A stretch of 64,000 nt of DNA from Barnesiella viscericola DSM 18177. Lineage in GTDB: Bacteria; Bacteroidota; Bacteroidia; Bacteroidales; Barnesiellaceae. Positions 32,634 to 36,755 of this stretch are shown piece after piece. The stretch spans positions 434,001 through 498,000 of the forward strand of contig NZ_CP007034.1 of NCBI RefSeq assembly GCF_000512915.1. Reading direction: 5' to 3'. Position 1 is the first letter of the stretch, and each line of letters begins with the position of its first letter. A model generated the notes under the pieces. It worked only from the letters and a program-made list of their open reading frames with translations. It searched no databases and was not told the origin of the DNA. The translations under genes and the position numbers were made by a program.

Positions 32634-33746
32634 ATGAAATTAGTACGATTAATCGGATACATAGCCCTCGGATTGAGTTTGGCCGGCTGTAACGGGAAAT
32701 ATGAAATTGCGGGGGAAACCAGCCTCCTGCCCGACGGGACCCTCCTCTTGCTGCAAAAGTTGAACCAAGAGCATTTTGAAATCATCGACAGCGCCGTGGT
32801 CAACGGTGGACACTTCGCTTTTCACGGTCGTCAGCGGGAACCGGCCGTCGCCATACTGGTACCCGACAACGAGCGGGCTTCAACCTTCCCCCCTCTGCTG
32901 CTTGCCCTTCAACCTGGCACAATACAGGTTTCTATCGATTCGGTGACTCAAATAGGCGGAACACCCTTGAACGACCGACTGCAAGCCTACGAAGAGAGGC
33001 GACAGTCGTTCGACCGGCAAATGCAGACGATTGCCCGGCAATATCTGAACGATTACCTGTCGGGGCAACTGACCGACAGTGCCTTCCTCGCCCTGAAACA
33101 AGATTTTGAAATCGAACAGAAGGGTCTCGAAAAGATTACCCGGGAGTATATCGCAGCCAATACCGACAACGTGACATCGGTCTATCTCTTCCTGCAAAAC
33201 AGTTTTCTCTTTACTCCCGACGAGCAACGGCAACTCATCGCCAACGCAGCACCGGCCTTCCGAAAGAATGTGGCCATACGCAAAGTGGCCCGCATGCTGG
33301 CCCGGCTCAAAAACGTGGCCCCCGACATGCCCTACATCGACCTGCCCCTGCAAACACCCGACGGACACGAAGCCTCACTCTCGCAATATATCGGGAAAGG
33401 GCGCTATGTACTGCTCGACTTCTGGGCCTCGTGGTGCCCGCCCTGCCAACGGCAAACGCCCTACCTGAAACAACTTTACAACCGATATGACAAACAGCGG
33501 TTCTCGATTGTAGGCATCTCGCTCGATACCGACCGCAGCGACTGGCTCGACTACGTGCGAGCCCACCAGATGAACTGGCCGCAACTGGGCGACCCCAAGG
33601 GGTGGGACTCCGAAGCCATTCTCTCGTATGTAATCCAGGGTATCCCCCACCTCGTGCTTATCGGCCCCGACGGAAGAATCGTGGCCAATAACCCTTCGGA
33701 ATCTGAACTGAATACTCTGCTTTCAACCCGGCTCAAACCATTATAA
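32634..33746 (+). CDS. TlpA-like thiol-disulfide oxidoreductase lipoprotein
   Basis: 370 residues. A signal peptide ends in lipobox LSLAGC (Cys19), so it is anchored in the envelope. The first ~200 residues look like the DUF4369 domain (KYEIAGETSLLPDGTLLLLQ) that often precedes thioredoxin folds in Bacteroidales. The C-terminal thioredoxin/AhpC-TSA domain has the redox motif WCPPC in LLDFWASWCPPCQRQTPYL and the cis-proline IPHLVLIGPDG. These proteins reduce or exchange disulfides in the periplasm. Monocistronic by appearance, between AT-rich gaps. Confidence 0.9.
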   Translation: MKLVRLIGYIALGLSLAGCNGKYEIAGETSLLPDGTLLLLQKLNQEHFEIIDSAVVNGGHFAFHGRQREPAVAILVPDNERASTFPPLLLALQPGTIQVSIDSVTQIGGTPLNDRLQAYEERRQSFDRQMQTIARQYLNDYLSGQLTDSAFLALKQDFEIEQKGLEKITREYIAANTDNVTSVYLFLQNSFLFTPDEQRQLIANAAPAFRKNVAIRKVARMLARLKNVAPDMPYIDLPLQTPDGHEASLSQYIGKGRYVLLDFWASWCPPCQRQTPYLKQLYNRYDKQRFSIVGISLDTDRSDWLDYVRAHQMNWPQLGDPKGWDSEAILSYVIQGIPHLVLIGPDGRIVANNPSESELNTLLSTRLKPL

Positions 33747-34049
33747 ACGGATCAACTTATCTGTAAGTATATTAAAATTTTTCATTATATTTAATCCACT
33801 GAAAATCAGTATACAACATAAAACACCTTGCAATGGTTCATTCCATTAATAAAAAACAGAGAATATCCATCTATATCCTTATTCCCGATTCAATTTCGGT
33901 TACAAACCAGAAATGCGTATAACGTTATACATATGATTTCTATTCCATGTAATTCCGTCAACGGGTATACAGCATTATTTCGTTTTTTAAAAACAATTTT
34001 AAAAAATAAATTTCTAAATTTGCATGCTTATTAAAAGTAATATATTGTT
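33747..34049 (+). promoter_or_regulatory. AT-rich intergenic region with a -7 element
   Basis: 303 bases with no convincing gene. The only recognisable signal is TAAATTTG at 34015-34022, 28 bases before the lipoprotein ATG at 34050; it should serve the lipoprotein and the subtilase. The sequence before it is unusually T- and A-rich. An apparent 68-codon frame across it has no recognisable features. Confidence 0.5.
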
Positions 34050-34499
34050 ATGTGGAAATTTATATGCACAGCGATGTTAATCATCGCCTTGGCAGCTTGC
34101 CACACAAATAAAAGTATGTCAAAAACAGAGCATACGGTCGTGACGACCGATTACACCCTGCCGCAAGAGGTATCCGCATCAGCCTCATTCCGCATGTTTT
34201 GGGATACCTGGACCGCCGATCTCAAACAATCGGGTAAGACACTCGACGAGTATGTCCCCTCGGAACGGCTGATTCAGCGATTCGTATTGCGGCCGCAAAA
34301 CGGAGAATATCTCGTGACGGGATTTCTGCACACCAACGACGAATTTAACGTCGACGCACTCACCCAATTGGGAGGATACGGCGTGAAATACAACAACTCG
34401 ATGTATAGTTTCGCCATTCCACTAAGAAGCCTTCCCCAATTTGTGACCCTGCCGGGCATTACCTATATCGAGGCAGCTTCGCCCGTGCGCAACCGATAA
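34050..34499 (+). CDS. lipoprotein resembling the subtilase propeptide
   Basis: 149 residues, with signal peptide and lipobox LAAC (Cys17). Residues from GFLHTNDEFN to ASPVRN align without a gap over 58 positions with the propeptide region of the S8 protease encoded 33 bases downstream; I counted 20 identities, including FLH-NDE-N, IP, LP, Y-E and PVR. Such I9-like domains normally act as internal chaperones and inhibitors of their own protease. A free copy fixed in a membrane beside the protease gene suggests a dedicated inhibitor or assembly factor. The likeness is seen directly; the function is inferred. Confidence 0.78.
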   Translation: MWKFICTAMLIIALAACHTNKSMSKTEHTVVTTDYTLPQEVSASASFRMFWDTWTADLKQSGKTLDEYVPSERLIQRFVLRPQNGEYLVTGFLHTNDEFNVDALTQLGGYGVKYNNSMYSFAIPLRSLPQFVTLPGITYIEAASPVRNR

Positions 34500-34532
34500 C
34501 CTATTGAACCAACAACTATAATCACTAAATCG

Positions 34533-36755
34533 ATGAAAAAGGTTTTACTTTCGTTTTGTTTATTAGCGGCATTCTGCCAACCGGGATTGAATGCCGATGT
34601 AAAAATGTCGCCATCGACCCAAAACTTTTTGCACAGTTACGAAACTACAACAGCGGCCAAACGCTCGATGTTAAAGTCGGTATACGCTGTTTCACAAAAC
34701 AAGAATCAGACCGTCGTATCGGCCTTCCTCCATCTCAACGATGAAAACAACCTCGAAGGGCTCGAAGAGAACGGCGTAGTCATCAACGCCCAATATGGCA
34801 CCATACTCTCGGTTCGTATTCCGGCCGACAATCTGGAAGCCGTATCCCAGTTACCGGCTGTAAAATATGTCGAAATCGGTCGTCCCGTGCGCAAACTCAT
34901 GAACAACGTGCGCAGCGCGGCATTCACCAATGCCGATGCACTGCATGCCGGAACCGGACTGTCGCAGGCCTACACGGGAAAAGGTGTCGTAGTGGGTATA
35001 ATCGACGGCGGGCTGCAATACAACCATATCAATTTTTATGACTCGCAGAGTAACGAACTGCGTCTGAAAAGAGTGTGGAATCAAAACGTGATCGGTAATG
35101 CTCCCCAAGGATATCATTATGGCACCGAATATACCACTCCCGAGGAGATTGAGGCAGCCCAATACGATGACAAGGAAGAGACCCATGCTACCCATGTGAC
35201 CGGTATCGCTGCCGGTGCCTATAAAGGAAACAGCTACTACGGTATCGCTCCCGATGCCGACCTGGTATTCGTGAGCTACAATCTGGCCGACAACAGCAGC
35301 AGCAACACCAGCATCACCGACGGTATCAAATACATCTACGACTACGCCGAATCGGTAGGAAAACCCTGCGTCATCAACATGAGTCTGGGGCACCACTTCG
35401 GTCCTCACGACGGTACGTCTACCTTCGACCGCATCTGCGACGAGTTGCAGGGCGAAGGCCGGCTGCTGGTCGGTGCCGCCGGTAACGAAGGCGAGATGCC
35501 CATACACGCTCAAAAGACCTTCACGGCCGATGACACAACCATGAAGAGTCTGGTCGAAATTACTCCCTATTACGGATATTGGATAAGCTCCATCGATATT
35601 TGGGGCGATGCCGACAAGGATTTCACCGTTAAGGTAATTGTCTACGATAAAGTCAATGACAAAGTGGTATATACCTCCGATGCCTTCTCAACAACCACAG
35701 GCATAAGCAGAGTAATCAAAAACCCCTCAGGCTCTCTCGGCGAAGTGACTGTTGGCGCAGCAACCGACCCCAACAACCACAAAGGGAACGTGACCCTCGA
35801 TATCGTATTGGAATCGTTGAAAAACAACTACTACATCGGGTTCGAGGTATCGGGCAGCGAAGGGACCACCATAAACTCCTGGACCGATGCCTCTTATTCG
35901 TGGTTCTACGACTCGGGTAATGACGAGTTTACCAGCGGCGACACCCACTCGACCATGGGTGAAATCGGTGGTACCGGCAAACGAATCATCTCGGTAGGAG
36001 CCTATACAAGTTGCAACAACGTCGTGCACTATTACAGCTCCTTGTACAACCGCTCGGGACGAACCCTAAACCAACTGGCCTCTTTCTCGAGCCAGGGTCC
36101 CACAATCGATGGACGTATGAAACCCGATATTACTGCCCCTGGCACAATGCTCGTATCGTCGCTCAACAGTACCACTTGCCAACGTGGAGGATCGGAATAC
36201 GAACATGTAGTTTCTATAGAGAATATAGACGACACCAAATATTACTACGGCTCAATGGAAGGAACCTCGATGGCTGCACCTGTCGTGACAGGTACGCTGG
36301 CTACCTGGTTGCAGGCCCGACCGACCCTTACCCCCGAAGAGGTGCGTGAAGTCTTTTCCAAAACGGCCAAGACCGACAACTATACCGGTGAGATTGCCGG
36401 TGTGGGCGACAACCGCTGGGGCTACGGCAAACTCGATGCCTATAACGGGTTGATTCAATGTATCAATCTCTCGGGCGATGTCTCGGGCTTGGACAAGGTG
36501 GGTGCTCCTACCCACCCGATGGTCTATCCCAACCCGGCCACAACCGAATGCCATTTCCTGTTGCCGAACGACGACCAAGGGGTGAGCGTGGCTCTCTACT
36601 CGCTCAACGGCTCGGAGGTTTATCGCCAGTATGTGGGCGATGTACAGGCCGGTGAGCAGACGGACGTCGCCCTGGACGGTATTGCTCCGGGCATCTACCT
36701 CATGCGCATTACGGGCGAAAAGGGTCTCGTCACAACCAAGTTGACCGTGAAATAA
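34533..36755 (+). CDS. S8 subtilisin-like serine protease with type IX secretion tail
   Basis: 740 residues with a signal peptide. Order: I9-like propeptide (residues ~60-122), subtilase domain with Asp158 (IIDGG), His218 (ETHATHVTGIAAG), oxyanion Asn318 (AAGNEG) and Ser579 (GTSMAAPVVTG), then the T9SS type A tail (YPNPATTECHF ... APGIYLMRITGEKG). An insert of ~150 residues (about 335-480) between His and Ser is a beta-rich domain seen in some Bacteroidetes subtilases. It is exported across the outer membrane. The upstream lipoprotein resembles its propeptide. A 17-bp terminator ends the transcript. Confidence 0.95.
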   Translation: MKKVLLSFCLLAAFCQPGLNADVKMSPSTQNFLHSYETTTAAKRSMLKSVYAVSQNKNQTVVSAFLHLNDENNLEGLEENGVVINAQYGTILSVRIPADNLEAVSQLPAVKYVEIGRPVRKLMNNVRSAAFTNADALHAGTGLSQAYTGKGVVVGIIDGGLQYNHINFYDSQSNELRLKRVWNQNVIGNAPQGYHYGTEYTTPEEIEAAQYDDKEETHATHVTGIAAGAYKGNSYYGIAPDADLVFVSYNLADNSSSNTSITDGIKYIYDYAESVGKPCVINMSLGHHFGPHDGTSTFDRICDELQGEGRLLVGAAGNEGEMPIHAQKTFTADDTTMKSLVEITPYYGYWISSIDIWGDADKDFTVKVIVYDKVNDKVVYTSDAFSTTTGISRVIKNPSGSLGEVTVGAATDPNNHKGNVTLDIVLESLKNNYYIGFEVSGSEGTTINSWTDASYSWFYDSGNDEFTSGDTHSTMGEIGGTGKRIISVGAYTSCNNVVHYYSSLYNRSGRTLNQLASFSSQGPTIDGRMKPDITAPGTMLVSSLNSTTCQRGGSEYEHVVSIENIDDTKYYYGSMEGTSMAAPVVTGTLATWLQARPTLTPEEVREVFSKTAKTDNYTGEIAGVGDNRWGYGKLDAYNGLIQCINLSGDVSGLDKVGAPTHPMVYPNPATTECHFLLPNDDQGVSVALYSLNGSEVYRQYVGDVQAGEQTDVALDGIAPGIYLMRITGEKGLVTTKLTVK

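Follow-up and report, generated by a model that had tools for sequence, protein, structure and literature searches.

A lipoprotein of 149 residues, encoded immediately upstream of a T9SS-exported subtilase, is a relative of that protease's own propeptide, and it probably acts as a propeptide in trans, facing the periplasm and plugging the active site of enzyme that has become active prematurely. Both genes lie in the window, the whole stretch of 64,000 nucleotides that was analyzed. We computed the homology of the lipoprotein to the propeptide, its fold, its chain end at P1, the intactness of the protease, its T9SS tail, and the conservation of the pairing. The features are as follows (window coordinates):

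34015..34022, + strand: candidate promoter element TAAATTTG, an exact match to TAnnTTTG, which we take to be the Bacteroidota -7 promoter consensus and by which the element is read (-7 only)
34050..34499, + strand: lipoprotein ORF, 149 aa, proposed trans-propeptide inhibitor of the downstream subtilase
34050..34100, + strand: signal peptide ending at the lipobox LAAC (Cys17), with no acidic residues at +2 to +7
34305..34496, + strand: lipoprotein domain that follows helices 45-61 and 72-77 (AlphaFold2 model, PDB propeptide matches)
34470..34496, + strand: residues 141-149, with helix-capping Glu141 and a product-like tail (P4 Val146; P1 Arg149, the chain end)
34533..36755, + strand: subtilase ORF, 740 aa, T9SS-exported S8 protease of Csp type
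34596..34898, + strand: the subtilase's own propeptide, about residues 22-122 (model)
35004..36269, + strand: catalytic triad Asp158, His218, and Ser579 with oxyanion Asn318 (family motif assignment)
35538..35885, + strand: beta-rich insertion (residues ~336-451) where Csp proteases have their jellyroll (model strands; CspB alignment over 123-655)
36522..36752, + strand: T9SS type A C-terminal sorting domain (TIGR04183, PF18962)

The earlier note on this DNA had described a 149-residue lipoprotein with a T9SS subtilase 33 bases downstream. The ORF coordinates give a gap of exactly 33 bp, the lipobox is in place (C17 is invariant in lipoprotein alignments A1/A3), and the subtilase scores above the cut-off for PF18962 (Por_Secre_tail) as well as TIGR04183 (40.7 bits against a cut-off of 23). 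The subtilase begins with a signal peptide, followed by the propeptide, the Peptidase_S8 domain (E 2.8e-45), and the T9SS sorting domain, and the T9SS translocon SprA is encoded in the same genome. The promoter candidate TAAATTTG is located just upstream of the lipoprotein gene; TAAATTTGC occurs three times in the window, against 0.63 expected. Directly upstream of the pair (window 32634-33746) lies a gene for a thioredoxin-fold (TlpA-like) lipoprotein. A TlpA-like gene precedes the pair in most genomes of the genus, a link that is possibly positional only.

The lipoprotein is a relative of the subtilase propeptide, and the similarity is real. Recounting the identities reported in the earlier note gave the same number: the best gap-free window of 58 residues (lipoprotein 89-146 against subtilase 62-119) holds 20, a value reached by none of 1000 shuffles (maximum 16). 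BLASTP aligned the lipoprotein with the subtilase over 70 gap-free residues at 30% identity (E 6e-9), and comparing both segments as profiles, as the earlier note had suggested, yielded an HHalign probability of 97.1% over 78 columns for nine lipoproteins against nine propeptides. Across the entire closed genome of 3.08 Mb, the top nonself match of the lipoprotein was the neighboring subtilase (E 6.6e-6); one T9SS-tailed paralogous subtilase ranked second. Searches with the lipoprotein against Pfam and NCBIfam returned no significant match; neither collection contains a profile for this family, which is therefore easily missed. A PDB sequence search with the lipoprotein profile gave no credible match. 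Inhibitor_I9 (PF05922) did not match the lipoprotein up to E 10 and was absent among the 25 families listed for 51 relatives. The CspB prodomain profile PF18425 matched 12 of these 51 sequences weakly (best E 1.1e-4) and the subtilase at E 0.16, leaving the window lipoprotein unmatched.

Structural models agree with the sequence comparison. AlphaFold2 predicted residues 41-140 of the lipoprotein at a pLDDT of ~96-97 as an alpha/beta ferredoxin-like domain (E86-95, H102-106, E110-113, E118-124, H125-131, E137-142). Foldseek matches of this model in the PDB were modest (best E 8.6e-3), and nearly all leading rows were subtilase propeptides; on structural re-alignment, the best 20 rows were all subtilase propeptides or pro-subtilases (Z 5.3-7.4), with the longest coverage for CspB (model residues 34-149 against CspB 5-96). 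The subtilase's own propeptide, modeled at lower confidence, has the same order of elements including the helices, so the relation spans the whole domain, and the fold that the earlier note had expected the two segments to share is found in both models.

The lipoprotein tail is predicted to end at the P1 position of the active site. When the structures are aligned, residue 149 coincides with the final residue of propeptides that have been cleaved (Tk-subtilisin 69, BPN' 77, PCSK9 152, CspB 96) and with the terminus of POIA1 (76), a free inhibitor. In the gap-free alignment, it stands opposite subtilase residue 122, which lies within the mature start (residues 120-123) predicted independently from the subtilase model. 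Lipoprotein Glu141 corresponds to Glu69 of BPN', a helix-capping residue (PMC6993865). We tabulated 16 tails, 14 of them from paired lipoproteins. The capping Glu is kept in all 14, P4 is Val, Ile, or Ala in all 14, and P1 is Arg or Lys in 12. Five of the 14 chains run 5-11 residues beyond P1 and two more extend 2-3 residues beyond it; these seven would not form a neat product end.

The protease itself appears competent. Asp158, His218, Ser579, and Asn318 are intact and invariant among 34 relatives (alignment A5), and with the triad intact, an inactive protease partner was ruled out. Its mature chain is predicted to start near residue 120-123, since model residue 123 aligns with mature residue 97 of CspB and residue 121 with subtilisin residue 2. 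Among solved structures, CspB is also the one nearest to the subtilase (Z 43). Despite the latter being a T9SS cargo in Bacteroidota, its closest structures are the clostridial spore-germination Csp proteases (CspB, CspA, and CspC).

As to the side of the membrane, lipoproteins that reach the surface in Bacteroidota bear an acidic export signal behind the Cys (PMC5080379), and nine SusD-like lipoproteins of the same genome are acidic at this place. By contrast, no acidic residue occurs at +2 to +7 in the subtilase-paired lipoproteins. This absence suggests an anchor that faces the periplasm, in line with the periplasmic or outer-membrane-held location put forward in the earlier note.

The pairing extends beyond this genome. 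Unrelated folds and a pairing confined to one genome were the two outcomes by which the earlier note would have been refuted; neither was seen, and its interpretation is partly supported. All nine genomes of the genus encode the two genes on the same strand, the spacing ranging from -4 to +42 bp; in two of them the genes overlap at an ATGA. A wider search in 393 genomes sampled from the order found three further families, four in all: f61 (three genomes, spacing 2-16 bp; the other two genomes have neither gene), f8 (one genome, 1 bp; three others of its genus have neither gene), and f79 (one genome, 33 bp). All five paired subtilases checked outside the genus have a T9SS tail. The genes flanking the pair differ among the families, which indicates that the pair itself is conserved and not the neighborhood. 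In two f79 genomes, a single chain combines a lipoprotein-type N terminus, the propeptide, and the S8 domain, without a T9SS tail:

L058:4721-6760, - strand: single-chain lipo-subtilase
L059:6038-8110, + strand: single-chain lipo-subtilase

These two chains are membrane-anchored proteases in a family in which another genome has the separate pair. Orphan lipoprotein relatives, with no adjacent subtilase, occur in two other families of the class (L076:1501-1971, L079:1465-1935, L080:1486-1956, and L100:900-1364). Three of the orphans are preceded by a PorP/SprF-like gene and by one encoding a gliding-type C terminus; the fourth comes after a gene with a T9SS-like tail. The orphans depart from the paired lipoproteins in their capping and P4-P1 residues, so that they may have another function near the T9SS. 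The genome studied here has a T9SS-tailed subtilase paralogue with no lipoprotein partner (G000:C1:958972-961089; L116), which implies that T9SS export of such proteases needs no partner in itself; upstream of this paralogue is a different T9SS-tailed gene.

Phylogeny argues for an old relationship. The domain tree unites the genus lipoproteins with those of f61 in a supported clade (99/89) that the f8 lipoprotein and the lipo-subtilases join less firmly (92/87), and the neighboring propeptides fall in clades of their own; because of long branches, placement is unsure for the f79 lipoprotein and the orphans (L035, L100, and the L076 group). Because the lipoproteins of two families form a clade apart from the neighboring propeptides, the lipoprotein is an old duplicate. 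A recent local duplication of the neighboring propeptide was ruled out by this separation, and the word copy, chosen in the earlier note, is misleading. In the catalytic tree, subtilases that are paired in the genus and in f61 fall into one group (86), to which the unpaired paralogues do not belong, and from the two groupings, both genes have probably been inherited together since before these families split. The f79 single chains are mixed, their propeptides grouping with lipoproteins and their catalytic domains with f79 subtilases, as expected if the two genes had fused or, in reverse, one chain had split; in both cases, the same domain acts in these chains as a propeptide in cis. Distance matrices of lipoproteins and subtilases correlate at 0.95 over 13 pairs and 0.45 within the genus, a correlation that shared descent alone can yield and from which we therefore drew no support for binding.

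T9SS cargo is believed to pass through the periplasm in a folded state, so an exported protease endangers its own cell. In the mechanism that we propose, the lipoprotein would be cotranscribed with the protease gene, exported by Sec, and tethered through Cys17, presumably on the side of the envelope that faces the periplasm. The protease would be folded by its own propeptide, which is then presumably removed. Were the enzyme to become active before T9SS export, the ferredoxin-like sheet of the lipoprotein would pack against the same catalytic-domain surface, and its tail would lie in the substrate cleft like a precut product, with Val146 at P4 and Arg149 at P1. Once past the outer membrane, the protease would be beyond the reach of the tethered inhibitor and free to act. 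Inhibition would be expected from the fold, the chain length, and the relatives of the lipoprotein. The CspB prodomain stays bound and blocks the active site; supplied in trans, it restores folding and prevents active-site labeling, and the block is lost on removal of P3-P1 (PMC3567191). By analogy, the lipoprotein is the putative natural in-trans counterpart of a CspB-type prodomain, ending at P1, and this analogy together with the P1 end makes a tethered guard against periplasmic protease activity before T9SS export its most likely role. That the pair is kept together in four families suggests that the plug probably holds the enzyme off within the envelope. Speaking against this role are the unpaired T9SS-tailed paralogue, the paired lipoproteins whose chains overrun P1, and the orphan relatives with no adjacent subtilase.

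The main rival, which we regard as unlikely, is that the lipoprotein is a folding chaperone or export pilot that aids periplasmic folding or hand-over to the T9SS, any inhibition being incidental. It draws on the restoration of folding by the CspB prodomain in trans (PMC3567191), which makes chaperoning hard to separate from inhibition, and on the subtilase being made right after the lipoprotein. However, the subtilase retains its own propeptide with the same elements, and neither the P1 end nor the kept P4 residue is needed for folding. Alternatively, the lipoprotein could be a surface tether or receptor that retains the protease at the outer membrane after its export or cleavage; the lipid anchor and the two single chains that combine anchor and protease fit such a role, but a tether with a propeptide fold would obstruct the active site, and the lack of acidic residues at +2 to +7, compared with the nine SusD lipoproteins, also speaks against it. 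We consider it improbable.

Hardly more probable, and if anything slightly less so, is a potempin-like dual inhibitor that also blocks noncognate proteases, such as host or competitor subtilases, with the neighbor as a secondary target. Orphan members of the family away from subtilases would suit this reading, whereas adjacency is strict in all paired genomes and a free propeptide inhibitor, SUB1-ProM, is highly selective (PMC6993865). Finally, the existence of lipo-subtilases with the same N-terminal part might hint at a functionless remnant, a decayed subtilase that retained only signal and propeptide. We give this very little credence: the gene is retained throughout the genus (nine of nine genomes) and in three more families, and the dN/dS of the lipoprotein across the genus, ~0.08-0.29, indicates purifying selection. 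A pseudogene or remnant was ruled out by dN/dS and conservation.

A broader version of the periplasmic-plug reading can be offered tentatively, as a possibility that we rate below even chance: an old Bacteroidota family of lipid-anchored trans-propeptides may form the periplasmic safety lock of T9SS-exported Csp-type subtilases, existing now as an inhibitor gene of its own, now fused in cis to a membrane-anchored protease and swapping between the two states, with side branches beside other T9SS genes.

Although the lipoprotein would act much as the Tannerella potempins and the free propeptide inhibitors of eukaryotes do, it does not belong to the potempins and is not matched by Pfam I9. Potempins are reportedly (Ksiazek et al. 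2023) beta-barrels, OB or up-and-down, that are unrelated to the protease; the lipoprotein here is modeled as a ferredoxin-like relative of the protease's own propeptide. In Tannerella forsythia, small lipoprotein genes of this class lie directly upstream of T9SS KLIKK proteases and are reported to encode specific inhibitors (PMC4404884, PMC7296668). The gene order is the same here, but the subtilase ends in ...TTKLTVK, the KLIKK ending being absent. Free propeptide-like inhibitors (Plasmodium SUB1-ProM, Toxoplasma MIC5, Pleurotus POIA1, the yeast peptidase B inhibitor, and Arabidopsis SPI-1) share the stand-alone propeptide fold and the C-terminal tail at the active site, and the SUB1-ProM gene also adjoins subtilase genes (PMC6993865). 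Those proteins, however, are eukaryotic, with no lipid anchor and no T9SS link, whereas this one is bacterial and lipid-anchored. The T9SS KP-43 peptidases of Bergeyella cardium are likewise T9SS-tailed S8 proteases kept inactive by a propeptide, one reported to be without I9 similarity (PMC11982257), but no lipoprotein partner has been described for them. Clostridial CspB resembles the present system in both the structure of the protease and a prodomain that stays bound and inhibits, also in trans (PMC3567191); there, the prodomain belongs to its own spore protease, whereas here a second prodomain is a separate lipoprotein gene. In the literature searched, we found no described bacterial lipoprotein of this kind. 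If our reading is correct, the pair would represent a second route, beside the Tannerella potempins, to a dedicated lipoprotein guard, in this case a guard related to the propeptide that the protease itself carries. It would also add a bacterial, membrane-anchored case, from a genus of gut commensals, to the free propeptide inhibitors that fungi, plants, and parasites are known to have.
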